From contig JAETXT010000015.1 in the NCBI GenBank assembly GCA_019188255.1, positions 1,364,001-1,428,000 of the forward strand: a stretch of DNA of 64,000 nucleotides, given 5' to 3'. This DNA is from Verticillium longisporum (taxonomy: Eukaryota; Ascomycota; Sordariomycetes; Glomerellales; Plectosphaerellaceae). Both the position numbers and the translations under genes were made by a program. Below are positions 3,001 to 44,508 of the stretch, piece after piece. The notes under the pieces are model-generated. The model had not been told where the DNA came from, ran no database searches, and saw only the letters and a program-made list of their open reading frames with translations. Numbering within the stretch: the first letter of the stretch is position 1; every line of letters begins with the position of its first letter.

Positions 3001-4570
3001 CCTTATTGTCAATGCCCTCTGTCTCTGCCTTTCGGGGGACAGGGTCTGGCCTGGCCTGGCCCGTTCTCCCCCCATAACTGTCTCTTGACAGTGGCCAAAG
3101 TCGGAACTGGCCGCATCGTGATCATGCCCTCAACCTTAACACGTCTCTCCTCCATTCGTGCCGTGCCATGTGTTCCCCACGCGCCTACGCTTGAGTGCAA
3201 AGAGGAGCAAAGAGGAGCTGGTGCGTGAGTTTGAGCGGCGCAAGAGGCTCAGAAGGGTATGCGCTCCGCACATGGTAAACACGCCAATGTGTCACCGATC
3301 ATGACGATGAGCGAACAGTCGACGACAGACCACATGCTGATCCATCTCGAGGAGGCCCCCCAGGCATCCACAGCGCCCACCGCATCCATGCGCCCCCCTC
3401 CGTCCTCCGGGGAAGAACAGCCTTCTGACGGGGGCATACAAACGCAACCAGACGAGCGAGATGCTCATGGATTTTCGCATCTAGCACCAAAACGGGCAAT
3501 GAACCGTGGACTGGGCCAATTATGGCGTCGTGCCAAGAAATCGGCCGCACCAAGTACCGGTTGGCTTTGAACGAGGGCGGCTTTGGAGGGGGGAAGGAAA
3601 TGGAGGCAAAAGGAGGGGGGCGTAGTAGCAAAGCAACAGAAGCAGCAGCACGAGCATCATCAGCTGCGGTCGGTCGTGGGCCTTGACTGTGGCTCTGGGG
3701 CCACCCCTGGTTCACTCCACCTCCCTGCTCCCCCGTATTTCTCCTCTCGCGCCCTGTCTCTCTCCGCTCCTCTCAGGTGTTTGGTCGCTATCGGTGTTAA
3801 GCTGACTCTTGTGCGTCCGGCTTAGGTTCTACCCCGCAGCCGGGGCGAGATGGGGGCACTCGGGTAGCCCACATTCCCCAGATTCACCGTTCATTGCGGC
3901 GCCCTCCTTGCCCTCCTCCCCCCCTTTTGCACAAGACGCTCGAGTTTATCTGCCCCAGACAATGTGCTCCCACTAAGTCGGACGGTTGGCCAAGACGCTG
4001 ATGGCTGTCGAAGACCGCCACCCTCGGCATCTTGGCTCGCTCTTCTTTGTCTGATTGGCTCTCGCAACCGTGTTTGTGTGCTTCTTCCGAGCAGCGCCAG
4101 AGCGGCTTGTCACCCCCCTTTCAAGGCAGGGCAACGCCAGGCAAGGCAAGCCCAGCCAAAGCTGGGGAAAGGCGCGTGGAGCTTGCCGGGTGGTGCAAGA
4201 TGCTAGGTTCGTAGTGTGTGATGCGTAATGGGGGCCCCATGAATAGGTAGGTGAGGGTGGATAGTGATGGGAGGGGTCCCGATCCCATGGTATGGGTCTG
4301 GTGTGGCCTGGTCTGGGTCTCGTCTGCTCTGGGACACGTCGCCGGTCGATCTACAAAAGGCCTGGGTGAGAAGCTTTCCTGAAATCCGATGCAAAGAGAA
4401 AAAAGGGTAGGCCCAAGACTCTCTCATCCCATCCTTCAAGGTCCCAAAAACGTCTCGGGGTGCACAAGCGACGACACGACAAGAACCAAGACCAGTACCT
4501 CACCGGCTGTTTCCCGAACAGCTTCATCCCATACTCACCCGCTCATACTCTTTCATACAGCCTGCCCATC
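1..4570. other. gene-free 4.6 kb left flank
   Basis: I see no convincing gene here. Open frames exist on both strands but none shows a recognisable domain, consistent codon use or fungal splice pattern. The last few hundred bases (about 3.7-4.57 kb) are C-rich and pyrimidine-rich, as expected of the promoter and leader of the transporter that starts at 4571. Confidence 0.5.
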
Positions 4571-6288
4571 ATGAGCCCACGCGATCGTGAGCTCGAGAAG
4601 GAGGACTTCGAGACCGAGCACATTGGCGACAAGGCGAACCGCGTCGACTCGGCCGATGGCGTCCGCACGCCTGGTTCCTCTGCTCCCGACCATGGCTTCA
4701 CGCCTGAGGAGCAGCGCAAGATCATCAGACGCGTCGATCGTCGCCTTGTTGTCATCGTCGGTCTGATGTACTGCGTCTCCCTCATGGATCGAACCAACTT
4801 GTCGGCCGCCGCCATTGCCGGCATGAATGTCGAGCTCAACCTCATTGTCGAGAACCGATACGTATGCAATACCCTTGAACCCCCAACTTCAGTGCCTGTG
4901 AATGGGTGCACCTTGGCTGACCACTGGGATACTCACAGAGCATCGCGTCGCTTGTCTTCTTCATCCCCTACATCCTCTTCCAGCCGCCGTCGACCATCAT
5001 CGTCCGCAAGCTGGGACCTCGCATTCATCTCGCAGGCATCTGCCTCATGTGGGGTAGCGTCATGATCGGCATGGGCTTTTCTCAGAACTTCACCCACCTC
5101 GCCGTGTGCCGTGTCCTTCTTGGTGTCCTTGAGGCTGGTTTCTTCCCCAGCTGCGTCTACCTGCTCAGCACCTGGTATACCCGATGTATGTGTTGCTCTT
5201 CAATCTTGTTAATGATGTCCGTCGCAGTTGATTGAGTATCATACTGACGTCTTGGCGTAGTTGAGGTTGGCAAGCGGTACTCCGTCTTCTACCTCCTCGG
5301 ATGCGTCGCCTCCGCCTTTGCTGGCATTCTGGCCTACGGCCTCATGCAGATGAACGGCCTCGCTAACCTGACCGGTTGGCGCTGGATCTTCATCATTGAA
5401 GGTATCATCACCTGCCTTCTCGCCGTCCTCGGCTACTGGCTGCTTGTCGACTTCCCCGATTCGAGGCGCAAGACTTGGAACTTCCTCGGCGAGCGCGAGC
5501 TCGAGTGGGTCGTTGCCCGCGTGACCCAAGACCGGGGCGAGGCCAAAACGCCCCCTTTCAACCCCCGCCGCTTCTTCGCTGCCGGCGCCGACTGGAAGAT
5601 TTGGGCTTACGCAATGATCTTCTTCAACACGACCACCCTGTCGTATGCCCTCGCCTACTTCCTGCCCATCATCCTCCAGATCAACATGGGCTTCACCGTC
5701 GGCGAGGCTCAGTGCCTTGTCCCCCCCTACGCCTTTGCCGGCTGCGTCATGTTCGCCACGGCCTGGCTCGGCGACAAGTACCGCGTCCGTGGCCCCATCA
5801 TCATCATCAACGTCATCCTCTGCCTCATCGGCCTCCCCATCATGGGCTTCCACCCCAACGCCAACGTCCGCTACTTTGGTGTCTTCCTCGTCACCGCTGG
5901 TGCCAACTCCAACATCCCCGCCGTCATGGCCTACCAAGCCAACAACATCCGCGGCCAGTGGAAGCGTGCCTTCTGCAGCGCCACTCTTGTCAGCTTTGGC
6001 GGCGTCGGCGGTATCGCCGGCAGCCTGCTCTTCCGCGCCCAGGACATGCCCCACTACCGCCCCGGCATGTACGCTTGCATTGCCTGCTGCCTGCTTACTC
6101 TCATCCTTGTCGGCATTCTGAGCCTTGACTTCAAGAGGCAGAACGGCAAGGCCGAGCGCGGCGAGAAGGAGCTGGAGAATAACGAGGTAAGTTTTTGTCC
6201 CCGCTCTCCTGCAACCAACTTTGGTGATACCCCTGAGACTAACAGAGCGCAGGAGGACTCGCAGCGCGGTTTCCGCTACACGTACTAA
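4571..6288 (+). CDS. MFS transporter, Dal5/allantoate-permease type
   Basis: Plasma-membrane major facilitator of the anion:cation symporter group (yeast Dal5, Tna1, Seo1 relatives), which import small organic anions such as ureides, vitamins or carboxylates. Exons are 4571-4861, 4939-5185, 5261-6186 and 6253-6288, giving 499 residues. All splice phases close and the last exon restores the aromatic RYTY tail common in this family. Visible motifs are a charged cytosolic N-terminus, then DRTNLSAAAIAGM at the end of the first membrane segment, and WYTR-x-E-x-x-x-R across the second intron, a family hallmark. About 12 hydrophobic segments follow. Using the earlier acceptor at 6245 for the last intron would shift the frame and lose the tail, so 6252 was chosen. 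The substrate cannot be read from sequence. Confidence 0.9.
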
Positions 6289-27348: not shown

Positions 27349-28825
27349 ATGAAGTCCTTTACCACCGCCGGCGCCATCGCGTCGCTCGCCCTTCTCGCCG
27401 AGGCCTGCATCCTGCCCGAGGAACTTGCCAATGGCGGCGAGGCCGTTGTCAAGCGCCAAACCGGAAACACAGGCCTGGCCATTGGCACTGGTAACAGGTT
27501 CGCGAACGGCACCGTTCCCCGCGGTCTCGGCACTCAGCCCCCGGCACCAACCTCGAGACCCTCCTGAATGTCGGCGAGATCACGGCTGCCGTCCAGGCTC
27601 TCGTCGACGAGTACGATCTCGAGTCCTTCGTCGCACCCGTCAAGACGTACGAGGGCGCCGAGATTGTTGGTGCCAAGGTCGGTGGCCAGAAGAACTGCTC
27701 TTCCAGCTACCACGTTTACTTCAACGGCGCCATTCACGCCCGTGAGCGCGGCTCCTCCGATAACATCATCTATTTCATCTCGGATCTGCTGTATGCCAAC
27801 AAGCACAACACCGGCCTTCAGTACGGTGGTCGCACTTACACCAACTGCGACGTGCGTCGTGCCCTTGCCGCGGGTATCGTCTTCACCCCTCTTGTAAGCC
27901 AATGCCGTCCTCGAGCAATTCCAAGCGCAGAGATACACCAATTTGTATCTAATCGGATGACTTACAGAGCAACCCTGACGGTGTCGCTTGGGACCAGAGC
28001 ACCAACACCTGCTGGAGGAAGAACCGCAACCCTGCGGCCGCCATTGCTGGTAACCCTGCTTCCGTTGGCGTTGACCTGAACCGTAACTTTGATGTTGTCT
28101 TTGATTTCCTGAACAAGTTCCATCCCGAGGTCGGCCCCAACGTCGCCTCGAAGAACCCTCGTGGCCAGACCTACCAGGGCGCGTCTGCCTTCTCCGAGGC
28201 TGAAACCCAGGCGATCAAGTGGGTCATGGATGAGCACGAGAACTTGCGTTGGTACATGGATGTCCACGCCTATACTGGTGTTCTGTGAGTGTTCTACTCT
28301 AAACCGTCCCTCTGAGAATGTAATCATTTTGCTAATCAAGCCGAACATAGGCTGTACGCAAGCGGAATCGATGAGCTTCAGAGCCGTCACCCCGAGCAGA
28401 ACTTCCTGAACTCGACCTACGACAACGTCCGCGGCCTAATGCCCGACGACCCTCAGAGCTGCGCGGTCTACGGTGAGTACATCACGCAGAAGGACTGGTC
28501 CGACAAGTCGTTCGCCGCCATGCGTTCCGTCAACGCCATGGACGCCGCCACTGGTCGCCACTACGAGGCCATGTCCGCCGCCTACCTGTACCCTACCTCC
28601 GGTGCCTCGGATGACTATGCCTGGGCCCGCCACCAGATCGACCCCAGCCTCAACAAGCTTCACGGCTACTGCCTCGAGTTCGGCTTCGGCAACACGGCGG
28701 CCAGCTGCGCCTTCTACCCCACGAGCGAGATTTACCACCAGAACGCTCTTGAGACCGGTGCCGGCTTCATGGAGTTCCTCCTGGCTGCGACCGAGATTGG
28801 CTTGGGCGAGGAGGGTACTTGCTAG
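27349..28825 (+). CDS. secreted M14 zinc carboxypeptidase (frame break or 47-bp intron)
   Basis: Extracellular metallocarboxypeptidase of family M14, removing C-terminal residues from peptides. A signal peptide (about 1-19) precedes a propeptide-like region with KRQ. Zinc ligands appear as HARERG (His, Glu) and DVHAYTG (His); DLNRNFD holds the Asn-Arg pair and CLEFGFG the catalytic Glu. Later exons are 27968-28284 and 28351-28825. The first exon (27349-27893) is not open throughout: the frame changes at a run of five C at 27538-27542. Either one base is missing there, in which case the coding-like NRFANGTVPRGLG segment before it belongs to the protein, or 27491-27537 is a 47-bp GT-AG intron. 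Removing that intron restores the frame and gives 429 residues, but it lacks an obvious branch site. The active site is intact in both readings. Confidence 0.8.
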
Positions 28826-30370: not shown

Positions 30371-32402
30371 TTATTTTATTAATAATTAATATAATATTAA
30401 AAATATTATTCTAGAGTCTAGTTCGTTCTTTCTATTTATCTATCTATTTATAGGTAAAAAGCTATAGATAGCTTATATTTAGCTCTAAGTTAAATAATAA
30501 GTAATTTCTAGAAATTATTAATAAAGAGCTTATCTCTATTTAATATTAATTCTTTTAGGAGTCTATATTATCCTATAATATTCTTAAAGAATATATAAAT
30601 AAAATCTTCTATTATTCTTATAGCTTTATATAGGAGAAAGTAGGAGTATTTAATAAATTAATCGATAATTATTAGGATATTATCGTAAGAGGTCTTAATT
30701 AAGGGTTCCTTCGATAATAATAAGCTAATAATAAAGTCTAATAAGACTAACTCCTAGGCTATAGTTAATATTAATAGTACTTTAAGTTCTCTATAGGGCT
30801 TATATCTCTCTATTTTACTTTTCTTATAAAGGTTATAATTATAGATTATTATTATAATATCCTATTTAATTCCTTTAAAATTATAATATTTTCTAAATTA
30901 AGCGAATATTTTCGCTACTCCTTAGTATCTATAGGCTTTAGCCCTATAGACTTATTCGATAAGCTCTATAATACTCTTAACTAGCTTAGCGGGTTTTATT
31001 TATATAGTAATTATTAAGGTATAATAATATAGGATTAGATTTCCTTCTTTATCGTTTACGAGGATTACGTTATTATTTAAGGGTATAGTTTATTCGTAAT
31101 CTAAGTATCTATTTAAGATATTTACTTTATTATTCTTAGATCCTTTATAATAGATAATAGTAAAATTAAATTCTAAAAGTAATTCCGCTTATTTAATCTA
31201 TTATTTATTAAAGTCTTTATTTATTATAAAATATATAAGATTCTTATAATTAATATAGATTTTAATTTTATATTATACTCTAGAGAGATATATTCTCTAT
31301 TCTTTAAAAGCTTTAATAATTATTATAAGTTCTTTATTATATATTTAATAATTAAGCTCTAATCCGTATAGCTTTTTCGAGAAGAATACTATTAAATATA
31401 ATCGTCCTTAATCGTCCCTCTAGCTTAACTATCCCTTAATAGCGAAATTAGAGGTATCTATCTCGATTTCTATAGGTTTTTCGGGCCTATTATCCGGAGG
31501 ACTAGCTCGCTAAGGATAATATCGATAATTTAGCGAAATGCTTTTTCTTAGGGTTCGTTTTATACGAACTCTATTTCCTTAATTATAAGGTTTATTAAAG
31601 GATTAGCGGTCTTATTATATCTTTTTAGGAATTATTAATAGAAATTAACGAAACCGAGGAATACTTTAACGTCTTTAACGTTTTTTAGTATAAGCTATTC
31701 CCTAATAGCTATTATTTTAGATTTTTCTATCCTACTTTCTCCTAGGGTAATCGTATATCCTAGGAAATCTACTTCCTATATATAGAATTTAGCTTTTTTA
31801 AGCTCTATTAATAGCTTATATTAATATAATCGTATAAGGACTTAATAGACGTATCCCTTATACTCTTCTATCGTCTTCGAGAAAATTAGAATATTATTAA
31901 AGTATATTATTATAAAGATATCTAGGAATTCTCGTAATATATCGTTAATTATATTTTAGAAGGTTATAAAGGTATTAATTAATCTAAATAATATAATTAA
32001 ATACTCGTAATATCCTTATCGTATTCGGAATATTATTTTCTATTCTTCTCTATCCTTAATATAGATAAAATTATATACTCCTTTAAGATCGAGTATTATA
32101 AACTAATGAGCTTTTATTAATATATCCCTAAGTTCTAATATTAAAGGTAATAAATAGTAATTCTTAATAATAATATCGTTTAATTATCTATAATCGATAT
32201 ATAATCTTTCTTTATTATTCTTCTTTAATATAAAGAGAATCGGGTATCTTATTAAGGATATCGATAATCGAATATATCCTTTTCTAAAGTTCTCTTTAAG
32301 ATATTTATTAAAAGTATTTATCTATTAAGGGTTTAATCTATAGATCTTATTAAATTAAGGGCTCTCCTTTTCCTTAATTAGGATTTCGTAGTTATAGTAT
32401 AT
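30370..32402 (-). mobile_element. copy A (left part): RIPed chromovirus pol
   Basis: Minus-strand, RIP-mutated copy of the intact element. 30.4 kb aligns to about 34.88 kb and 32.4 kb to about 36.88 kb, covering integrase, RNase H and reverse transcriptase. Frames are full of stops. It ends where the truncated plus-strand LTR of copy B begins; copy A resumes at 41646 with only about 140 bp of its sequence missing. Confidence 0.85.
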
Positions 32403-32688
32403 TATAACGCCCTAGCCCGGTCATCACTAGGACACTAGGCAGGACACCCCGTAGGCGATCGGACGCGCTACACGGACCTATAGGATCACTTACGTAACCG
32501 TGACTAGATCACGATTCTCAAAGTGATCCGGTCACTAACTATACCGTAACCTAAGTAATAGGATTACGATAAGAAAGGTAAGCTATCTAATATAGACTTA
32601 CTAATTTAATACGATAAGGATAGAATAATAGGTATATAAGGATAAATATTCGATATTTATAAATATATTCTTTTTTACGATAGTTACT
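32403..32688 (+). repeat. truncated RIPed LTR of copy B
   Basis: Starts TATAACGCCCTAGCC, the RIP-changed inverse of the end of the left LTR of the intact element. It continues through the same U3 type (type 1) and TATA region, and breaks off inside the R/U5 part, where it joins reverse-transcriptase sequence directly. Its U3 is clearly less mutated than the surrounding pol. Confidence 0.8.
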
Positions 32689-33076: not shown

Positions 33077-33509
33077 TGTTACGACCTGGCAGCTTCCGAA
33101 GGGGGAACACTGTCAGAGGGTTAGGGTTGCTGTTTGCAGAAGCTTAGGTTGTGACTCTGAGACGATGTGGTGTCGTAAGGCGTTGCGCACTCGTTACAAT
33201 GGATACAAGGTAAGACTTAGATTGATCACTGTCGTGAGAAAGAATGTATCTACAAGTACCGAATGCCCGTCCTTATATACCTGTCATTCTGTCCTTGTCG
33301 TGTTGGGTTGGTGAGTCCATGTTGGATGGCTCACCTTTCTTGTCGTGATCCTGTTGCTTGGGTCACGGTGTGGTTAGTGACCGGATCACTTTGAGAATCG
33401 TGATCTGGTCACGGTCACGTGAGTGATCCTGTGGGTCCGTGCGGCGCGTCCGATCGCCTGCGGGGTGTCCTGCCTGGTGTCCTGGTGACGACCGGGCTGG
33501 GGCGTTACA
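33077..33509 (-). repeat. LTR at the left (3') end of element C, U3 type 1
   Basis: 433 bp, bounded by TGTTACGACC and GGCGTTACA. The first about 259 bp (core promoter, R and U5 in element orientation) match the other LTRs almost base for base. The remaining 174 bp (U3) match only the truncated LTR at 32403. A minus-strand TATATAAGGA box lies at 33280-33271. Confidence 0.93.
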
Positions 33510-33524
33510 TGATTCTCCTCCTCC
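33510..33524 (-). other. polypurine tract
   Basis: Read on the minus strand this is GGAGGAGGAGAATCA, directly before the 3' LTR. It is the expected primer site for plus-strand DNA synthesis of an LTR retrotransposon. Confidence 0.75.
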
Positions 33525-33614
33525 AGGTCGATGTCCCAGCGACCCTTACTTGTAAGCGCCGCACCCCAGGTAATTATGTCCCTCAACTTGTTCTTCCTTC
33601 ATGATACTAACGAA

Positions 33615-34237
33615 ATGTCGAGTCGTGTCGAAAAACCAAAGTCCCTGTCTGCTCGAAAGCGACAAGAACAGTTTGATTTTATTGAGCTTCGTGGCTACGA
33701 CGTCATGCCGTGTTCCTTCTGCCAACGGAAGGGTTGGAAGTGTCGTATGGTGGAGGGCGTCAGTCGCTGCTCCGAATGCGTTCGTCGCGGTCGCTCCTGC
33801 GATGGTTCGGGGTGCCCGTCAACGCTCGTGAGTGCCTGTAGTGGTGTCTCTCTCGCTTTCTCAGTCCGCTAACCCATAGTAGTGTCTCGCATCACCCAGG
33901 AGCTAGGCAAGCTGGACAAGAAGGAGCTGGATGAGGAGGCGCGTTTGGAGGAGCTGCAGTCTCAAGTGGCGGAAGCTCTCAGTCGTTTGAAGCGCCTTCG
34001 TACTCAGAAGCGATCTCTTCATGAGAGGGGTGTGAAGATGGTGAACCAAGGGTTGCAGTCTCTGGACGAGTTGGATTCCGCGGAGCGGAGGAGTCTGAGG
34101 CCGTGGTGGCCGTGCAAGCGGCTGGGGGTTTCGGGGTTATTGATTGGAGCGCCTTGGGCTCCTTTGACCCGGAGTCGCTTGATTTCCTTGGGACTGGTGA
34201 TACTGCTTCAGCAACTGTGGGCAGTTCAGGTTCTTGA
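33615..34237 (+). CDS. antisense zinc-cluster/coiled-coil gene carried by element C
   Basis: Opposite in strand to gag-pol, between pol and the 3' LTR, overlapping the last about 100 bp of pol tail to tail. Exon 1 (33615 to about 33831) encodes a basic leader and six cysteines spaced C-x2-C-x6-C-x8-C-x2-C-x6-C (codons 33711-33800). This is exactly the pattern of Gal4-type Zn2Cys6 DNA-binding domains. A roughly 48-bp intron (about 33832-33879, weak GTGCCT donor) leads to a second exon whose first 60 residues form a charged heptad-like helix (EEARLEELQSQVAEALSRLK), as in the dimerisation coil after many zinc clusters. Near 34086 the frame shifts by one base. The new frame runs on as an acidic, Gly/Ser-ending tail to a stop at 34237. 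An alternative start is 33576. Function is unknown; a role in regulating the element or host genes is inference. Confidence 0.6.
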
Positions 34238-35471
34238 TTGGTTCCCATGTATTTTCTTCATGCCCATAGTTTTTCCATTTGATGAGGTATTCGTCTTGTT
34301 TGTTCGTTTTTCTGTAGTCGATGATTCTTTCGACTTCGTATTCGTTTGTGTCTTCTACTTCCACGCTGGTTGCGAGTGGTGCGTTCGGTGGTGCTGGTTC
34401 CAAAAGTGCTATGTGAAAAACGGGGTGAATCTTCATGTTCTCTGGCAATGAGAGGTGGTAGTTGGTATCCGAGAGTTTCTTGAGAATTTTAAAAGGTCCT
34501 AGTTTCTTGAAGTCCAATTTGTCGTTTGGTCGTTTGGTTTTGATGTTTCGGCGGATAAGGTAGACGCTACCTCCCTCCTGTAAGGATGGTCCCTTCATCC
34601 TTGTTTTGTTGGCGTACGTGGTCATTCTGGTACGTACGAGCTCGAGGTCGAGCTTGATCTGGTCCTGGATCTTGCGGATGCTGGCCGCAATGTTGGTTGC
34701 TTTTGGCGTGTCTGGTGCTTCGCGGCGTTCCGCGTAGGCTGTTGGGTTGTACCCATAGTTGGCATAGAAGGGTGACTCCTTTGTGGACTCGCTTGGTGAG
34801 CTGTTGTATGCAAACTGTGCGATGGGTAGTAATGTGACCCAGTCATCCTGTTGGTAGTTGATATAACACCGGAGGTACTGCTCCAAAGTCTGGTTCGTTC
34901 TTTCCGTTTGTCCGTCTGTCTGCGGGTGAAAAGCCGTGGATAGTTTATGTTTGGCTCCAAGTTGAGCGATGAGTGACTTCCAGAAGTTACTGGTGAAGAG
35001 CTTGTCTCTATCTGACACCAGTTCTTTTGGGAGTCCGTGCTGTCCTACAATGTTTCTGAGGAAGACATAGGCGAGGTCTTCTGCCGTTCCTGTGGCTTTA
35101 TACGGGAGAAAATATGAGTACTTAGTGAGTCGGTCTACGACTACTAGGATGTTGTCGTAAGAGGTCCCAGTTAAGGGTTCCTTCGATGGTGGCAGGCTGG
35201 TGATGAAGTCCAGTGAGACTGACTCCCAGGCTGCTGCTGGTACTGGCAAAGCCTTGAGTTCTCCGTAAGGCCTGTGCCTTTCTGCCTTGCTCTTTTTGCA
35301 GAGGTCGCAGTTGCGAATGACTGTTGTGACGTCCTGTCTGGTTCCTTTGAAGTTATGGTGTTTCTTAAGTCGAGCGAAGGTCTTCGCTACTCCTTGGTGC
35401 CCGTGGGCCTTGACTTCGTGGACTTGTCGAATTAGTTCCAATGCTTCCGTAGGTGGTCTGGCGGGTGTCAC
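34137..35471 (-). CDS. pol: pol, 3' part: integrase and chromodomain
   Basis: Integrase region of the chromovirus polyprotein. The zinc-binding HHCC domain lies at the start (HGHQG through CDLC). The DDE triad appears as LDFITSLPP (Asp), VSDRDKLF (Asp) and GQTERTNQ (Glu). The C-terminal part holds the GPY-like KKLGPFKILKKL segment and a chromodomain read as EYEVERIIDYRK, YLIKWKNYGHEENTWEP and so on, which in relatives binds methylated histone H3. It lies in the -1 frame relative to the preceding RT part. The true reading continues upstream through LIPYHRTLAVTTRV, so the split reflects a one-base change rather than a separate gene. Confidence 0.9.
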   Translation of the reverse strand: MTPARPPTEALELIRQVHEVKAHGHQGVAKTFARLKKHHNFKGTRQDVTTVIRNCDLCKKSKAERHRPYGELKALPVPAAAWESVSLDFITSLPPSKEPLTGTSYDNILVVVDRLTKYSYFLPYKATGTAEDLAYVFLRNIVGQHGLPKELVSDRDKLFTSNFWKSLIAQLGAKHKLSTAFHPQTDGQTERTNQTLEQYLRCYINYQQDDWVTLLPIAQFAYNSSPSESTKESPFYANYGYNPTAYAERREAPDTPKATNIAASIRKIQDQIKLDLELVRTRMTTYANKTRMKGPSLQEGGSVYLIRRNIKTKRPNDKLDFKKLGPFKILKKLSDTNYHLSLPENMKIHPVFHIALLEPAPPNAPLATSVEVEDTNEYEVERIIDYRKTNKQDEYLIKWKNYGHEENTWEPIKNLNCPQLLKQYHQSQGNQATPGQRSPRRSNQ

Positions 35472-37540
35472 GCGAGTGGTGACTGCCAGCGTTCGGTGAT
35501 AAGGGATGAGATTCCCTTCTTTGTCTTTCGCCAGGATGGCGTTAATGTTGGGGGCGTGTTTTGTTCATGATCTGAGCGTCTGCTCAGAATGTCTGCCCTG
35601 CCATTCTCAGATCCTTTGCGATAGATGATGGTGAAGTTGAATTCCGAAAGGAATTCTGCCCATCTTATTTGGCGTTTGTTGAGGTCTTTGTTCGTTGTGA
35701 AGTGTGCAAGATTTTTGTGGTCGGTGTAGACCTTGACTTCGTGTCGTGCTCCGGAGAGATACGTTCTCCATTCTTTGAAGGCTTCGATGATTGCCATGAG
35801 TTCTTTGTCGTGTATCTGATAATTGAGCTCTGGTCCGTGTAGCTTCTTCGAGAAGAACGCTACTGGGTGCAGGCGTCCTTGGTCGTCCCTTTGTCCTAAC
35901 TGTCCTCCAATGGCGAAGTCGGAGGCATCTGTCTCGACTTCCATGGGTTTTTCGGGGTCTATCATTCGGAGGACTGGTTCGCTGAGGACGGCATCGATAA
36001 TTTGGCGAAATGCCTTTTCTTGGGGTTCGTTCCATGCGAACTCTATTTCCTTGACCGTGAGGCTCGTCAAAGGATTGGCAGTCTTGCTGTATCCTTTTAG
36101 GAATCGTCGGTAGAAGTTGACGAAACCGAGGAATGCTCTGACGTCCTTGACGTTCTTTGGTGTAGGCCATTCCCTGATGGCTGCCACTTTGGATTTTTCC
36201 ATCCTGATTTCTCCTGGGGTGATCGTATACCCTAGGAAATCTACTTCCTGTGTGTGGAACTTGGCTTTTTCTGGTTCTACTAACAGCTCGTGCTGGTGTA
36301 GTCGTGTGAGGACCTGGTGGACGTGTCCCTTGTGTTCTTCCATTGTCTTCGAGAAGATCAGAATGTCATCGAGATATACCACCACGAAGACGTCCAGGAA
36401 TTCTCGCAGTACATCGTTGATCATGTTTTGGAAGGTTGCGGGGGCGTTGGTCAATCCGAATGGCATGACCAAGTACTCGTAGTGTCCTCGTCGTGTTCGG
36501 AATGCCGTTTTCCATTCCTCTCCATCCTTGATGCGGATGAGGTTATATGCTCCTTTGAGATCGAGCGCTGTGAACCAATTGGCTCCTGCTAATGCGTCCC
36601 TGAGTTCTGATATCAGAGGCAATGGGTAGCAGTTCTTGATGGTAATGTCGTTCAACTGTCTGTAGTCGACGCATAGTCTTTCCTTGCCATTCTTCTTTGG
36701 CACAAAGAGAATCGGGTATCCTGCTGGGGATGTCGATGGTCGGATGTATCCTTTTCTGAGGTTCTCCTTGAGATACTCGTCGAGAGTATCCATCTGTCGA
36801 GGGTTCAATCCGTAGATCTTGTTGAATCGGGGGCTCTCTCCTTCCTTGATTGGGATTTCGTGGTCGTAGTGTGTGTGCTTAGGTAGCACCGTGTCGACTT
36901 CTTCCCTGAAGATCTTTTCGTACTTCCAGTATTCCTTGGGTACGTTCTGCAGTCTTTCTTGCTGTTCTGTTGTGAGCTCCTCCGGGGTTGTCTCCTCTGA
37001 GTTGTCCCTATTCGTGAGGGCTAGTTGGAGGTCGCTTGAGAGACCGCTCGTGGGTCTTTCCTCAGGGGCTGACGTACTCCACTGGACGCGGCCAGCTGTC
37101 CAGTCAATCTGAGGGTTCCATTGTCTGAGCCATGGGATGCCTAGGATGATTTGTTTTCCTCCCATGTTGGTGATGTCGAAGGTTATGTGACCTTGACGGC
37201 GAGAGATGAACACCTGGAGGGGCGCAGTCTCCGTGTTCACGATCCCTCCTCCGTATGAGACCGCTTGTCCTTCCACCGTGCTGAGTTGATAGGGTTCCTC
37301 CTTATATTTCCATGTGATCTTATTCTTGTTGATGTATTCGGGGCTCATGTAGTTGCCCTGGGCGCCGCTGTCTAGTAGCGCGCTTGCCCATCGTCCTCCT
37401 ACGTTTATTCTCACGTAGAGGTGATTCGTGCCGTGGGTTCGTTCGGCTGAGCAGATCGCTCTTACTTCCTTCGTCGGTCGTTGTCCCTGTCCGACCGACG
37501 CTTGCCTTTTCCCGAAGGCGGCGGCGTGGTAGGTGGCCAC
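35468..37540 (-). CDS. pol: pol, 5' part: protease, reverse transcriptase, RNase H
   Basis: The open frame covers 690 residues in the -1 frame relative to gag, overlapping gag by 79 bp. The retropepsin active site reads LLDSGAQGNY (Asp57). Reverse transcriptase includes KKNGKERLCVDYRQLN, FTALDLKGAYNLIRI and the catalytic YLDDILIFSK. RNase H begins at EVETDASDFAIGGQL and continues to VYTDHKNL. The natural entry is by ribosomal slippage from gag, not at the first ATG. The last about 25 residues are off-frame after the run of five G at 35550-35554; the authentic frame resumes as the integrase reading. The protein would otherwise be about 1,130 residues. Confidence 0.92.
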   Translation of the reverse strand: MATYHAAAFGKRQASVGQGQRPTKEVRAICSAERTHGTNHLYVRINVGGRWASALLDSGAQGNYMSPEYINKNKITWKYKEEPYQLSTVEGQAVSYGGGIVNTETAPLQVFISRRQGHITFDITNMGGKQIILGIPWLRQWNPQIDWTAGRVQWSTSAPEERPTSGLSSDLQLALTNRDNSEETTPEELTTEQQERLQNVPKEYWKYEKIFREEVDTVLPKHTHYDHEIPIKEGESPRFNKIYGLNPRQMDTLDEYLKENLRKGYIRPSTSPAGYPILFVPKKNGKERLCVDYRQLNDITIKNCYPLPLISELRDALAGANWFTALDLKGAYNLIRIKDGEEWKTAFRTRRGHYEYLVMPFGLTNAPATFQNMINDVLREFLDVFVVVYLDDILIFSKTMEEHKGHVHQVLTRLHQHELLVEPEKAKFHTQEVDFLGYTITPGEIRMEKSKVAAIREWPTPKNVKDVRAFLGFVNFYRRFLKGYSKTANPLTSLTVKEIEFAWNEPQEKAFRQIIDAVLSEPVLRMIDPEKPMEVETDASDFAIGGQLGQRDDQGRLHPVAFFSKKLHGPELNYQIHDKELMAIIEAFKEWRTYLSGARHEVKVYTDHKNLAHFTTNKDLNKRQIRWAEFLSEFNFTIIYRKGSENGRADILSRRSDHEQNTPPTLTPSWRKTKKGISSLITERWQSPLA

Positions 37541-39405
37541 GTTGTGTTTAGATTGCTTGGGTCGAGGTTGTCGTCGTCCTTATAATGGACCCTGAAGAGT
37601 GGCTTCTTGACGTGTTTCATACGGTGAAGCCTCCAATCTCTGGCCTTGGCCATATAGTGCTTTATGCACGCGTCATTATCGCAGTCCTCCCATCTGGCAT
37701 GGTCTTGGTAGCATTTGTCGTGATAAGCGGGGTCTGGTCGGAACGTGAGCCGACCTTGACTGTATTCGTCCATGTGTAGGATCCATTTGCGACTTTCCTG
37801 TTCGAACTCTACCGTTACTCGTGGCTCGGTCCAGTGGTTGCGCGGGAGAAACCGGTGCGCGGCTTTCTCTTTGAAATGATATTCGCAGTCGTCGTAGACA
37901 CATTCGGGCCAAAACAACTGATAGTGTTGTTCGTGGGCGTGGTGGAGTGCTGGATGGTCTCCTACCATGAGTCGTACGTTTTCTTTCGTGCTTTCTTGCT
38001 TTCGGGCGCTGGCCTTCCATGGCTTGGTCCCGTAGTAGATGAGTTCGTCCCACGGTACAAGGGGATCGTAATCCTCACTAGGGTTGCTAACGGCGTAGGT
38101 CTGTGTTGGGATGTGGAGTTGAAGTTGTCCCAACGGGGGTTCCTCCTCCTGGCTTGCTTGCGTGTATTCGTCCCATTCCTCGTTGCTCATAAGTCCAACG
38201 TGGAGTGCGGCCTGTGGTTCCGGGTGAGCTTGTTCATAAGCCCTTTCTTCGTCTGTATCGATTTCCTGGGTCTCCGGCGTTACTTGCTGGGCCCATTTCT
38301 GAATTCGTCTTTCCTTCCTGGTGGTGACCATCATGGCCAGGGTTCTTTGTCCCGTAGGTGCCCTGGGGAACCATCCATTCTGTTCCTTACTGTCCTTGTG
38401 GGTCAGGCAATCATCCTGGTAACAGAAGGTCCAGTTAGTTTTGGCATGGTCCTGGTGTTGAGTATGGTTGAGCTGTCGTTCGTTTACGGGTTTCCAGGGC
38501 TTCTTAGGTTGCCGGCATTCTCGAGCCATATGCCCGTTTTTGCCGCAGTTGTAGCATTTCATGTCCTTGAGATCCTTCGGTTTGCCATGTCTGGTATTGT
38601 CGAGCTCCATGGGTCCTGCATGGGTGGTCTGTCCCCAAGCCGTGCTGACGCGGGGTTTGTCGTGCTGGTACTTGCGTCCTTGATTGGATCGGTGGTGGGG
38701 AATGCGAGGGTTCCATGGTCCTATAGCGGGCTTTCGTCCCTTTTCTATTCTGCGTTCGTACTGGCGATCGTCGATTTTGACGGCCATGGCGATGTACTCG
38801 GTGAGGGTTTCGGGTCTATCCTCCCGGATGAGGTCGTCCTTGACGGCGTCTTTGAGTCCTTCGTAGAAACGGGCCATGAGAGCGGACTCTGTCCAATCGA
38901 GTCGACTGGCTAAGAGTCGAAACTCCGTGGCGTACTTAGTGGCTGGCCCGGTCTGTTTGAGCTGAAGGATTTTTCTTTCGTTTTGTCGTTCCTCGTCCAC
39001 GTCCCCAAACGCTCCTTTAATGGCTTCTTCGAATGCGTTCATACCTGCGTAGATGTCCTGGGTGGCCTGCTTCATATCTTCTTTCTTGGTGTGGGTGGAA
39101 TAGTCCCTAATGAAGGGTTCGAACCAGTGCAAGGCGTCCCCTTTGAGGTAAGAGGAGGCGTTGGCGACCTTCTCGCCCCAGTACTTAAGTTGGCCCTCAT
39201 TGGCTTTGTGGTACTGGCGTACCTGGGTGATGAAAGACTGAAGTGCCCTAGGGTTGCCGTCGAATGACTGAGGGGGAAGAGCCTTCATGCTCGTTCCGCC
39301 TTGAAGTTGTTGCATTGAGGCTCGGAGCTGTTCGTTCTCCGAACGGAGCTCCTGGATCATAGCGGCCAAGTTGCTGGCGCTGTTTCCGACGCTGTTGGTG
39401 GACAT
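37462..39405 (-). CDS. gag: gag, nucleocapsid/capsid polyprotein
   Basis: 647 residues; forms the virus-like particle of the retrotransposon. A short coiled coil near the N-terminus (ELRSENEQLRASMQQLQ) precedes the retrotransposon gag domain (about 45-215, with WGEKVANASSYLKGDALHWF and the ATEFRLLASRLDW segment). A single CCHC zinc knuckle, CYNCGKNGHMAREC, holds Cys284, Cys287, His292 and Cys297. The C-terminal half is long, charged and rich in His/Trp/Asp, longer than in simple Ty3-type gag. It ends in a basic stretch that overlaps pol. The start was chosen at the first ATG, 74 bp inside the 5' LTR boundary. Confidence 0.92.
   Translation of the reverse strand: MSTNSVGNSASNLAAMIQELRSENEQLRASMQQLQGGTSMKALPPQSFDGNPRALQSFITQVRQYHKANEGQLKYWGEKVANASSYLKGDALHWFEPFIRDYSTHTKKEDMKQATQDIYAGMNAFEEAIKGAFGDVDEERQNERKILQLKQTGPATKYATEFRLLASRLDWTESALMARFYEGLKDAVKDDLIREDRPETLTEYIAMAVKIDDRQYERRIEKGRKPAIGPWNPRIPHHRSNQGRKYQHDKPRVSTAWGQTTHAGPMELDNTRHGKPKDLKDMKCYNCGKNGHMARECRQPKKPWKPVNERQLNHTQHQDHAKTNWTFCYQDDCLTHKDSKEQNGWFPRAPTGQRTLAMMVTTRKERRIQKWAQQVTPETQEIDTDEERAYEQAHPEPQAALHVGLMSNEEWDEYTQASQEEEPPLGQLQLHIPTQTYAVSNPSEDYDPLVPWDELIYYGTKPWKASARKQESTKENVRLMVGDHPALHHAHEQHYQLFWPECVYDDCEYHFKEKAAHRFLPRNHWTEPRVTVEFEQESRKWILHMDEYSQGRLTFRPDPAYHDKCYQDHARWEDCDNDACIKHYMAKARDWRLHRMKHVKKPLFRVHYKDDDNLDPSNLNTTWPPTTPPPSGKGKRRSDRDNDRRRK
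37507..37513 (-). promoter_or_regulatory. -1 ribosomal frameshift heptamer GGGAAAA
   Basis: In gag reading the codons run TCG GGA AAA GGC, so G-GGA-AAA fits the canonical X-XXY-YYZ slippery pattern in the zero frame. It sits inside the 79-bp gag/pol overlap. Slipping back one base continues as AGG CAA GCG, which is the pol frame. Placement, phase and direction all agree. I did not examine the downstream structure. Confidence 0.8.
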
Positions 39406-39478
39406 TGTTCCTGTGGTAAATATTGCTCAGTGTCACAAGGTAAACCTACTGAACAAGAGTGATCAAAATGTTACGACC

Positions 39479-39944
39479 TGGCAGCTTCCGAAGGGGGAAC
39501 ACTGTCAGAGGGTTGGGGTTGCTGTTTGCAGAAGCTTAGGTTGTGACTCTGAGACGATGTGGTGTCGTAAGGCGTTGCGCACTCGTTACAATGAATACAA
39601 GGTAAGACTTAGATTGATCACTGTCGTGAGAAAGAATGTATCTACAAGTCCAGAATGTCCGTCCTTATATACCTGCCATCCTGTCCTTGTTGTGTTAGGT
39701 GGTGAGCTCATGTTGGATGGCTCACTGGTTAGTTGTTGGTGATCCATGATGTTAGGATCACGGTGTGTTATCCCGTGAGCCATTCCCTGGCTCACTGCGG
39801 CGTCCTTGGTGAGCCCGACGACTCACCCTTTATGTCTGAGTGAGCCATCACGTGATTTGCCAGGTGGGCCCGATTCTTATCTTATCGCGTTCCCTGATCG
39901 CGGGGTCGTCGATTCGCGGCCGCCCTGCTTCCTTGGTTGTTACA
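39479..39944 (-). repeat. LTR at the right (5') end of element C, U3 type 2
   Basis: 466 bp between TGTTACGACC and GGTTGTTACA. The first about 247 bp are nearly identical to the left LTR. The last 219 bp (U3) are unrelated to it but match the RIPed LTR at 41170-41645. The internal sequence next to it (minus strand TTTTGATCACTCTTG) does not begin with TGG, so I cannot name a tRNA primer. Confidence 0.93.
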
Positions 39945-40480
39945 ATATATTAAAAGCGATTAATATTATAATTAATATCTATAAGATCTAGGACTAGATT
40001 AAGCTCGACCTTAAACTTATATATATTAGAATAACTATATATATTAATAAGATAAAGATAAAAGGATTATCCTTATAAGAAGGAGATAGTATCTATTTTA
40101 TCCGCTAAAATATTAAAATTAAATAATTAAACGATAAATTAGATTTTAAGAAACTAGGATTATTTAAAATTCTTAAGAAATTCTCGAATATTAATTACTA
40201 CCTCTTATTACTAGAGAATATAAAAATTTACCCTATTTTTTATATTATACTATTAAAGTTAATACTATATAATATATTATTTAAAATAAACGTAGAAATC
40301 GAAAATATTAATAAATATAAAATCGAAAGAATCCTCGATTATAGAAAGATAAATAAATAAAAAGAATACTTAATTAAATAAAAGAACTATAAATATAAAG
40401 AAAATATATAGGAATTAATTAAGAACTTAAACTACCTATAATTACTCTAAGAATATTATCGCTTAATATAAAACTAAAGT
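39945..40480 (+). mobile_element. copy B (right part): RIPed integrase tail and chromodomain
   Basis: Plus-strand remains matching the intact element from the ASIRKIQDQIKLDLEL region to the end of the chromodomain, with TG-to-TA changes throughout. About 1.6 kb of pol between here and the left part of copy B (ending at 33076) is absent. Confidence 0.85.
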
Positions 40481-41169
40481 CGGAAAATTCCTCCCCGAAG
40501 CTTAATAAGGACTAGTCTACGACGCTACTAGTACCCTACTCTTAAAAGTCCTATATTATATTAGCCTCTTAAGCCTCGAGGCTTAAGTTATCCCCGCTTA
40601 AAGGAAGGACGCTATCCTCCTTATCTAATTAACGAATCCTATAAATAAATAACTCTTCCCTACGAGCCTTCGCCGCTTTCTATATCTTACGAAGACGGGA
40701 TAAACGACCTAAAGCTATCGCTAATTTCGTTTAGAATACCTCTAATTCTATTTTAATATCCTTAATCTTAGCCTCTCGCTTCTTCTACTCTATAAGAGCT
40801 TTTTCTATTAAACGATTATTAAAAGATAGACCTATAACCCTATTAAGGATTAATTTATATATAGAAACTACGCTTATATTATTATAAGAGCGACCGTAAT
40901 GGATATACTCCTTATAGCGAGAAGAATTAAGGGCGATCTTATAGACGAGATATCGCTTAAAGTACCCTATATAAAGCATCCTAATTTCGCCCTTAGAATT
41001 AATTAAAGTAATAAACGCTTTTCTTTAATCGGTTTTAATAGATAGACGTTTTATAATACGACCTAATATTTTATTATAATTAATAAAGATAATAAGAGAA
41101 GAACTACCGTAGGTAGCTAGGACTTACTATTTATAGCCGCTAGGATATCGGCCTAGAAGAGGAGTATTA
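40481..41169 (-). pseudogene. RIPed antisense zinc-cluster gene of copy B
   Basis: Antisense to copy B, in the same place as the antisense gene of element C (between pol and 3' LTR). From 40979 downward an open stretch of 64 codons contains Tyr at positions 3, 6, 13, 22, 25 and 32. Their spacing is exactly that of the six cysteines of the intact gene. TAT/TAC for TGT/TGC is what RIP would produce. Both copies share GRS before the last position, but other residues differ widely. Further along, a helix-like run (IALGRLSRLRKI) parallels the coiled coil of the intact gene. Stops throughout the rest make it non-functional. An AGAAGAGGAG polypurine tract precedes the LTR. Confidence 0.75.
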
Positions 41170-41645
41170 TATAATAACTAAGGAAATAGGGCGGCCGTAA
41201 ATCGACGACCCTGTAATTAAGGAGTATAATAAAATAAGAATTAGGCCTACCTAGTATATTACGTAATAGCTTACTTAGATATAAAGGGTAAATCATCGAG
41301 CTTACTAAGGACGCTATAATAAGCTAGGGAATAGTTTATAGGATAATATACCGTAATCCTAATATTATAAATCACTAATAACTAAATAGTAAACTATCTA
41401 ATATAAGCTTACTACTTAATATAATAAGGATAGGATAATGGGTATATAAGGATAGATATTCTAGACTTATAGATATATTCTTTCTTATAATAATAATTAA
41501 TCTAAATCTTACTTTATATTTATTATAACGAGTACGTAATACCTTATAATACTATATCGTCTTAGAATCACAACCTAAGCTTCTACTAATAATAACCCTA
41601 ACCCTCTAATAGTATTCCCCCTTCGGAAGCTACTAGGTCGTAATA
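41170..41645 (+). repeat. RIPed 3' LTR of copy B, U3 type 2
   Basis: Starts TATAATAACTAAGG and ends GGTCGTAATA, the RIP-altered inverse of the type-2 LTR (39479-39944). About 476 bp. It differs in U3 type from the truncated 5' LTR of copy B at 32403. Confidence 0.88.
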
Positions 41646-42850
41646 CTAATTAGAGGTCGCTTAAGAGACCGTTTATAGGTCTTTCCTTAAGGGCTAATAT
41701 ACTCTATTAAATATAGCTAGCTATCTAATTAATTTAAGGGTTCTATTATCTAAGCTATAGAATATTTAGAATAATTTATTTTCTTCTTATATTAATAATA
41801 TTAAAAGTTATATAACCTTAATAGTAAAAGATAAATATTTAGAGGGGCGTAATCTCTATATTTACGATCCCCCCTCTATATAAGACTATTTATCCTTTAA
41901 TTATACTAAGTTAATAAGGTTCCTATATATATTTCTATATAATCTTATTCTTATTAATATATTTAGGATTTATATAATTACTCTAAACGCTATTATCTAA
42001 TAGTATATTTATCTATTATCCTTTTATATTTATTCTTATATAGAGGTAATTTATATTATAGGTTCGTTTAGCTAAATAGATTACTTTTAATTCCTTTATT
42101 AATTATTATCCTTATCTAATTAATACTTACCTTTTCTTAAAGGTAATAGTATAATAAATAGCTATATTATATTTAGATTATTTAGATTAAAGTTATTATT
42201 GTCTTTATAATAGACCCTAAAGAGTAGCTTCTTAATATATTTTATATAGTAAAGCCTTTAATCTCTAGCCTTAGCTATATAATGCTTTATATATATATTA
42301 TTATTATAGTCCTCCTATCTAATATTATCTTAATAATATTTATCGTAATAAGAGGGGTCTAATCGGAATATAAGCTAACTTTAATTATATTTATCTATAT
42401 ATAGGATCTATTTATAACTTTCCTATTCGAACTCTATTATTATTTATAGCTTAATCTAGTAATTATATAAGAGAGACTAATATATAGCTTTTTCTTTAAA
42501 ATAATATTTATAATTATTATAAATATATTTAAGCTAAAGTAATTAATAGTATTATTTATAAATATAATAGAATACTAGATAATCTCCTATTATAAATTAT
42601 ATATTTTCTTTTATATTTTCTTATTTTCGGGCGCTAGCCTTCTATAGCTTAGTCCTATAATAGATAAGTTTATCCTATAATATAAGGGGATTATAATCCT
42701 TATTAGGATTATTAATAATATAAATCTATATTAGGATATAGAGTTAAAGCTATCTTAATAGAGGTTCCTCCTCTTAATTTATTTATATATATTTACCCTA
42801 TTCTTTATTATTTATAAGTCTAATATAGGATATAGCTTATAGTCCTAAGT
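41646..42850 (-). mobile_element. copy A (right part): RIPed protease and gag
   Basis: Continues copy A: aligns from about 37021 to 38220 of the intact element (protease, zinc-knuckle-proximal gag), minus strand, with strong RIP changes and many stops. Confidence 0.82.
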
Positions 42851-44050: not shown

Positions 44051-44508
44051 TGTTACGACCTGGCAGCTTCCGAAGGGGGAACACTGTCAGAGGGTTAGGG
44101 TTGCTGTTTGCAGAAGCTTAGGTTGTGACTCTGAGACGATGTGGTGTCGTAAGGCGTTGCGCACTCGTTACAATGGATACAAGGTAAGACTTAGATTGAT
44201 CACTGTCGTGAGAAAGAATGTATCTACAAGTCCAGAATGTCCGTCCTTATATACCTGCCATCCTGTCCTTGTTGTGTTAGGTGGTGAGCTCATGTTGGAT
44301 GGCTCACTGTTATGTCGTGATCCTGTTATGTTGGATCACGGCTCACGGCGATCCAGGCATAACAGTGATCCTTAGCCCTGGATCACTGTTCCTGGTGATC
44401 CCGTCACGTGACCTAGCCTTGGCGAGCCTTATCTTATCAGTGACCCTGGATCCTCTGACGTGGGGCTTGTCTGCGGCCGGTTGTTCGACCCGTGCTCGTT
44501 ACACTAGC
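44046..44508 (-). repeat. solo LTR with 5-bp target duplication, U3 type 3
   Basis: LTR 44051-44503 (453 bp) flanked by CTAGC on both sides (44046-44050, 44504-44508). The first about 257 bp are nearly identical to the right LTR of element C. The U3 half (44308-44503) is a third, different type. It is un-RIPed. A solo LTR with intact target duplication arises by recombination between the two LTRs of a former full insertion. Confidence 0.92.

Follow-up and report, generated by a model that had tools for sequence, protein, structure and literature searches.

Layout of the element and its antisense gene

The window analysed here is a 64,000-nucleotide stretch of the Verticillium longisporum genome (G000:C7:1364001-1428000; the genome searched comprised 72.0 Mb in 16 contigs). 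It holds a Ty3/gypsy chromovirus at 33077-39944 that carries a gene for a six-cysteine protein on the strand opposite to gag and pol, between pol and the 3' long terminal repeat (LTR). Gag, with a zinc knuckle (37462-39426), and pol, with protease, reverse transcriptase, RNase H, integrase and chromodomain (34137-37579), are both on the minus strand. Pol matched the Pfam families RVT_1, RT_RNaseH, Integrase_H2C2 and Chromo above their cut-offs and in pol order, as in Ty3/gypsy chromoviruses, and the integrase core (rve) scored 26.5 bits, under its cut-off of 32.6. Pol is divided here into two open frames (35468-37579 and 34137-35564), at a point where the pol of another element, L031, runs on.

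The 3' LTR (433 bp; 33077-33509, minus strand) is of the type that we call A. Positions 1 to ~265, comprising U5, R and the core promoter, are common to all types, and in the five LTRs read the remaining 150-210 bases, the variable U3 part, differ by type. The common part includes a TATATA (33274-33279, minus strand; LTR position 198-199 in all five), a candidate TATA box of the sense LTR promoter. The 5' LTR (39469-39944, minus strand) differs from the 3' one, being of type B and 100% identical to the LTR of L031. What the first-pass annotation had called element C is a chimera, with a 3' LTR of type A and a 5' LTR of type B. It is without a target-site duplication, both of its flanks fall in pol sequence degraded by repeat-induced point mutation (RIP), and it is the product either of crossing-over or of misassembly. 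RIP-degraded chromovirus pieces flank it on both sides, at 30382-32684 and 40001-42183.

The antisense gene is on the plus strand. Exon 1 (33615-33827) encodes a basic N-terminus and the six-cysteine cluster, and exon 2 (33883-34237) a predicted coiled coil and an acidic C-terminus with a V(I/V)DW motif. The last ~100 bases of exon 2 overlap the end of pol, and the two genes meet tail to tail (34237 versus 34137), as had been claimed. The intron, predicted from the sequence and from the protein sequences of relatives, is most likely 33828-33882 (GT..CTAAC..AG); introns of 51, 52, 49 and 62 bases occupy the same phase-1 position in families II to V (see below), and the place and phase are also those of the V. 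dahliae relative P0001. The earlier proposal of a gene at 33615-34237 was correct as to the gene, although it has an intron and the window copy is not one open frame, with single-base frame changes in both exons relative to P0001. The argument that follows therefore rests on intact relatives. As it stands, the gene is open in the representatives read of families II to V, and the frame of exon 2 is kept in V. dahliae and in all but one of the RIP-mutated copies having a matched exon 2. A carboxypeptidase-like host gene in the window (27350-28825; named by eye) also seems to have a broken frame close to its 5' end, so the frame breaks in the element could also stem from single-base errors in the assembly. 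Bearing on the same question, the type A copy L001 has 6825 bases against the 6828 printed for VdLTRE3 in the passages of PMC3441728 covered here.

Exchange of the gene together with its U3

At least five families of the antisense gene lie beside pol in this genome. Family I, that of the window, comprises ten copies without a difference over 623 bp, one that is 98% identical and further RIP-degraded copies; families II, III, IV and V have 11, 4, 3 and 2 copies respectively. Among 82 candidates, 40 places were scored and checked by hand, and at all 40 the antisense gene adjoins the conserved end of pol, so that the repeated antisense position asked about in the first-pass annotation is indeed found in this genome. 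A host gene caught by a single insertion was ruled out by these 40 copies and by the nearly identical cassettes at 11 and 10 places. A lone relative of the gene in L035 (G000:C4:227603-235102, at ~804-1400), with no gag or pol match in this 7.5-kb piece, is possibly a host gene derived from the antisense gene, or a remnant.

The antisense genes are of three types, A, B and C, ~40-60% alike and each joined to its own U3, on backbones that are nearly the same. Gag and most of pol are 99-100% identical in nucleotides in the window element, L031 (family II) and L032 (family III). The backbone shared with the window element extends from ~35.6 kb as far as R-U5 in the 5' LTR, and that shared by L031 and L032 begins at ~34.85 kb. 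Over ~4.6 kb of gag-pol the latter two are 100% identical, apart from a 150-bp block at 99%; their gene and variable U3 are 36-63% identical. Across the pairs formed by the three elements, identity is 21-63% in the gene and variable U3, and the outermost 150 LTR bases are again 98-100% identical. A second backbone is that of L033 (family IV) and L034 (family V), whose gag-pol is 94-100% identical mutually and 74-100% identical to the first. Cassette B is found in L031 and L033 (79-93% alike) and cassette C in L032 and L034 (48-89%). Because both cassettes are present on both backbones, recombination is needed, and these results show that the gene and U3 have been exchanged between nearly identical gag-pol backbones.

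The pairing of gene and U3 was also examined in 24 elements checked for their flanks. A 5-bp target duplication was found in 14, and in all of these both ends carry the same U3 type, which is the type of the gene (type A in L001, L002, L004 and L005; type B in L031 and six more of family II; and also L032, L033 and L034). Six of the other ten have unlike LTRs, namely the window element, L008, L009, L010 and the family II copies at C9:3747532 and C1:3085922; unlike LTRs without duplications suggest crossing-over between elements after insertion, or misassembly. The remaining four have like LTRs, with reciprocal flanks in two (L003 and L007), a shared 4-mer in one and no match in one. L003 (C13) and L007 (C5), both of type A, carry the flanks GCTAG and CCCTT crosswise, as after a reciprocal crossover or misjoin. 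L008 (C2) and L010 (C1), also of type A, have both flanks in common, and compared with L001 the former differs at ~95 places in pol and the latter at one. At 17 of 18 further type A loci (L011-L028) a type A U3 lies beside the gene, and at one of these, L028, a type B U3 with a higher score was also present in the searched stretch. No type A U3 was found at L024, where the gene match is also incomplete.

Elsewhere in the window, a second, RIP-degraded antisense gene of type B (40422-41063, minus strand) lies beside and antisense to a pol end at 40001-40426 (plus strand), with its LTR at 41169-41643, and a type C LTR at 44051-44503 (minus strand) is 100% identical to the LTR of L032.

The predicted protein

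The window protein, read on the plus strand from 33615, has cysteines at residues 33, 36, 43, 52, 55 and 62 (steps 3,7,9,3,7). The resulting spacing, x2,x6,x8,x2,x6, is that of a Zn(II)2Cys6 cluster, C-x2-C-x6-C-x(5-12)-C-x2-C-x(6-8)-C. When 26 of the 37 relatives described below were aligned, three of the cysteines were invariant and three nearly invariant, and after the cluster came a helical stretch and then an acidic tail, which in most carries a V(I/V)DW-like motif. An AlphaFold2 model of a V. dahliae relative predicts a single long helix after the cluster (residues 82-142), and the C-terminal 60 residues have a net charge of -4 to -14 in all 16 proteins examined. The initial description, of cysteines in Zn2Cys6 spacing and then a coiled coil, on the opposite strand and lying between pol and the 3' LTR, is thus borne out by the sequence and its relatives, the coiled coil as a prediction.

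The label Gal4-like, given at the same time, holds in part. The spacing speaks for it, as does a weak fold match, the zinc cluster models matching LAC9 (1cld; 33 residues, 1.8 Å) and Pho7 (6e33; 35 residues, 2.0 Å). The Pfam family Zn_clus (PF00172) matched 16 of the 26 relatives at E ≤ 1, with a best value of 1.7e-4, but the window copy scored 11 bits against a cut-off of 21, and the U3 is not enriched in CGG (see below). Foldseek returned no match among solved structures at E ≤ 0.001 with the whole protein or exon 1, and in a second look the long helix matched just helices of other proteins. None of the NCBIfam profiles came near its cut-off, and no basic leucine zipper (bZIP) family was among the Pfam matches shown, so the protein does not classify as a bZIP factor of the HBZ kind.

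Relatives and selection

Among 5.8 billion proteins searched, 37 relatives reached E ≤ 0.001, and searches with families II and III gave 11 and 13, two of them already known. The closest named relatives are proteins of V. dahliae and V. longisporum, and a V. longisporum protein (P0038) is letter-identical to the family IV protein. Outside Verticillium the named sources belong to eight genera (Neoarthrinium, Corynascus, Staphylotrichum, Parathielavia, Metarhizium, Colletotrichum, Trichoderma and, as Fusarium oxysporum, Fusarium), and the host fungi span several orders of Sordariomycetes. Most relatives are unnamed, and the others are called hypothetical, uncharacterized or Zn(2)-C6 domain protein, and once 'chromosome segregation ATPase'. 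The search of fungal proteins proposed in the first-pass annotation has therefore yielded relatives in other genera, which rule out a gene confined to Verticillium. In a tree of 42 proteins, a split with support 97/86 sets type A apart from types B and C, and since other genera fall on both sides of it the cassette lineages look older than the genus. Seven stretches of viral contigs matched a pattern for relatives, and none was confirmed by tblastn.

Families II and IV differ at 41 of 143 synonymous and 9 of 454 nonsynonymous sites, a ratio of nonsynonymous to synonymous rates (dN/dS) of 0.056 (bootstrap 0.019-0.117). Between families III and V the differences are 78 of 136 and 28 of 438, with a dN/dS of 0.061 (0.030-0.106). 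Without the last 35 codons, where the gene overlaps pol, the ratios are 0.038 (II-IV) and 0.047 (III-V). Between types they are 0.37-0.45, with dS >1.1 and near saturation. The ratios within pairs are not near 1, a value that the first-pass annotation had listed among its refuting outcomes. The antisense gene is real and old, and its exons are under strong purifying selection in both family pairs tested; a chance or spurious open reading frame is ruled out by the relatives and by dN/dS.

The position of the gene in other species was judged from proteins only, by asking if the C-terminal 20 residues could be coded opposite the Verticillium chromodomain end. From 59 proteins, 10 fragments or frame-damaged sequences were left out beforehand, and six of the 49 tested, being of Verticillium type, fit by construction. 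In nine of the other 43 the C-terminus scored above all internal segments of the same protein (P0007, P0016, P0022, P0023, P0024, P0053, P0056, P0058 and P0059, several closely related to one another), and in the remaining 34 it did not. Two run-on tails, those of P0019 (Corynascus) and P0020 (Staphylotrichum), had their best fit across from one and the same piece of pol, just past the gene, with scores that in neither case were above all 60 shuffles. An antisense position in other species is likely by this measure. P0047 (VDAG_06271), with relatives in Fusarium and Trichoderma, is matched by the type C protein at 100% over 84% of the query. In the excerpt of a 2011 paper used here (PMC3145793), VDAG_06271 is tabled without a function in a section on wilt pathogen-specific proteins.

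Repeated half-sites in the U3

The five U3s examined (A, B, B2, C and C2) represent the three types. With no preset motif, the 7-mer GGCTCAC was found four times in the B and B2 U3s, a count reached in 0 and 1 of 300 dinucleotide shuffles, and in C and C2 the 7-mer GGATCAC was present five times (0 and 0 of 300). When the five elements were scanned in 170-bp segments, no 7-mer occurred four times in segments starting at 481-6199, and all segments with such repeats were at the LTRs. The pattern GTGA-N(1-2)-C has 7-8 distinct sites per variable U3 against ~1 in shuffles, and in each of the five U3s none of 500 shuffles reached the count, while internal segments (572 in each of the five elements) contain at most 3. 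In the window element this array of half-sites in both orientations, a candidate operator or upstream activating sequence, lies at 33311-33430. The sites mostly alternate in direction, many of them 15-20 bp apart. They begin at LTR position 234, end between 347 and 390, and are upstream of TATATA, at least 36 bases from it. Facing palindromes with spacers of 7-9 are present in B, B2, C and C2.

The commonest half-site follows the gene type in all five cases, being GTGACC in A (4), GTGAGCC in B and B2 (4 and 4) and GTGATCC in C and C2 (5 and 5). Between C and C2, identity is 82% at site positions and 51% at other U3 positions, and 2 of 188 circular shifts were as good. Genome-wide, 52 places carry the exact type B palindrome (reversed control 0), and all of the 50 listed have the spacer of LTR B or B2. 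The type C palindrome, which is also found once in type B LTRs, occurs at 116 places (reversed control 0); among the 50 of these listed, five have other spacers, two lying inside an LTR match and three being unplaced. These three GTGATCC palindromes with spacers unlike the LTRs read (G000:C1:5713755, C2:820335 and C2:2351513) belong to other LTR types or are host sites. Of the targets first suggested for the protein, its own LTR region thus gains indirect support from type-specific repeated U3 sites that change with the gene, and host promoters have no support so far in the palindromes listed.

Proposed regulation of the LTR by the antisense gene

We propose, at about even chances and from sequence comparison, that the antisense gene encodes a dimeric regulator of its own LTR, likely an activator, which is exchanged as a regulator-plus-operator cassette. 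The conserved six-cysteine protein, with its predicted coiled coil, would dimerize and recognize the GTGA-type half-sites of U3s of its own LTR type, and once bound would likely activate the promoter of that LTR, perhaps through its acidic, tryptophan-containing C-terminus. With the antisense gene read from the 3' end inward, the sites would lie between the sense core promoter and the start of the gene itself, and the same U3 may also drive the antisense gene, giving an autoregulatory loop; the same sites in the 5' LTR would control gag-pol. The intron would survive because it is on the strand that is not reverse transcribed, as reverse transcription of the sense genomic RNA would not remove it. 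The cassettes would then be specificity groups, an element responding to the regulator that it encodes and far more weakly to regulators of other types. Strand transfer in reverse transcription is established for this element family, and the exchange may have proceeded by switches of template within pol and at R; an exchanged block bounded on one side by R would fit this route. That gene and sites are swapped as one block is an argument for their partnership, weakened by their adjacency.

Several points weigh against this proposal. The gene and U3 are neighbours, and linkage alone could hold the pair together. The pattern GTGA-N(1-2)-C was defined after looking at the sequences, and in type A the repeated 7-mers GGATCAC or CGTGACC occur three times, which is not significant alone (30 of 300 shuffles). 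GTGATCC is also present three times in A and twice each in B and B2, so the half-sites are not exclusive to one type, and the footprint between B and B2 is weak (94% at sites and 81% elsewhere, reached by 23 of 211 shifts). CGG/CCG triplets, the usual target of Zn2Cys6 proteins, were sought in the U3s and were enriched in none of the five. Zn_clus scores are under the cut-off for types A and C (13.1 bits in family III), and type B (family II) gave no match. The recently multiplied type A copies have a frame-broken gene, which is maybe dispensable in cis, or else carries assembly errors. Finally, the sign of the regulation, activation or repression, is read from composition and position only.

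The main rival of activation, which we consider unlikely, is that the protein represses its own LTR as an element-encoded control of copy number or superinfection, the cassette types being immunity groups. The same pairing of gene and sites applies to it, phage immunity regions likewise exchange regulator and operator on a shared backbone, and a burst of copies with a frame-broken gene is the outcome expected from loss of a repressor. However, family II, with an intact gene, has multiplied as much (11 copies), the acidic, aromatic C-terminus resembles an activation domain, and the sites are upstream of TATATA rather than over it. We favour activation on account of this acidic tail and because the sites lie upstream.

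It is somewhat more doubtful that the protein, although real, binds elsewhere, as at host promoters, or acts in integration or packaging, with the U3 array consisting of host-factor sites or RNA hairpins and the gene and U3 travelling together as neighbours. Adjacency accounts for the linkage, palindromes could form RNA stem-loops, and the lack of CGG enrichment and the partial sharing of half-sites between types are consistent with this explanation. On the other hand, one and the same heptamer is found both in different palindromes and in lone half-sites, a recurrence that hairpins do not call for, the commonest half-site changes with gene type, and at the 50 places listed (of 52) every exact type B palindrome has an LTR spacer. 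A functionless by-product or decayed passenger gene, for which the broken frames in the window copy and its sister copies could be cited, is hardly credible given a dN/dS of ~0.06 in two family pairs, relatives in several orders of Sordariomycetes, and a conserved intron position.

Relation to known systems

The elements described here resemble VdLTRE2, VdLTRE3 and VdLTRE4 of V. dahliae, Ty3/gypsy elements with a chromodomain, LTRs of 476, 433 and 455 and an element length of 6935, reported to have 'nearly identical GAG and POL' and 82.5% overall identity in the passages of PMC3441728 covered here. By lengths and description, the LTRs fit types B, A and C in that order and 6935 is the length of L031; type C is within a few bases of the printed length, and VdLTRE3 is printed 3 bases longer than the type A element. 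The words antisense and opposite are absent from the main text of PMC3441728, and its passages covered here mention neither an antisense gene nor cassette exchange. They report expressed sequence tags for all three elements, one matching only VdLTRE4 and one only VdLTRE3 (PMC3441728). The backbones being nearly identical, these two tags (strand unstated in those passages) are probably from the variable part. We found no paper on this antisense gene in a literature search limited to open-licence PMC papers.

The predicted protein shares with LAC9 and Pho7, Zn(II)2Cys6 regulators of the Gal4 type, its cysteine spacing and a predicted coiled coil after the cluster, and the cluster models match theirs weakly. 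It differs from such regulators in having ~200 amino acids, no large middle domain, a weak Pfam score and candidate sites without CGG triplets. HBZ of human T-cell leukaemia virus type 1 (HTLV-1) is spliced and driven from the 3' LTR. Like the Verticillium gene, HBZ is encoded antisense in its provirus, for a bZIP factor according to the parts of PMC4776189 used here. It differs in being a bZIP protein of a retrovirus. To our knowledge there is no homology of HBZ to the Verticillium protein and no swapping of HBZ with the LTR. In the plant elements Retand (TRP28), Grande and RIRE2, a conserved antisense gene follows pol and precedes the 3' LTR; its product is predicted to be DNA-binding, and a regulatory role is suggested (PMC11963269). 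These elements belong to a non-chromovirus plant lineage with a TRP28 domain, whereas the Verticillium element has a chromodomain, and the abstract, Background and Discussion of PMC11963269 contain no Zn2Cys6 cluster, paired U3 sites or cassette exchange. With plant Retand and HTLV, this would be the third case of a gene of DNA-binding type placed antisense at the 3' end of a retroelement, which suggests that the position is repeatedly favoured for regulators.

In the immunity regions of lambdoid phages, a regulator gene and its operators are exchanged as one block on a common backbone. The likeness here is in the block exchange of a regulator and operator; the difference is that the Verticillium element is a eukaryotic retroelement whose gene is a regulator by inference. 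What is new is that an antisense gene is swapped between nearly identical elements together with a type-specific U3. A self-encoded regulator paired with its own promoter sites would offer a direct answer as to how LTR promoters are turned on in fungi and why sister families can coexist although their proteins are the same. The cassettes also supply ready pairs of protein and site for binding assays. Perhaps, although we hold this more tentatively than the regulator itself, fungal chromoviruses have a modular, immunity-like system in which a dimeric zinc-cluster regulator encoded in antisense and the palindromic U3 operators that match it form an exchangeable cassette, deep lineages across fungal orders reassort on common gag-pol backbones, and elements in one genome fall into separate regulatory specificity groups. 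If so, the families would be regulatory groups rather than protein groups, and the cassettes would be a eukaryotic retroelement counterpart of the repressor-operator immunity regions of phages.
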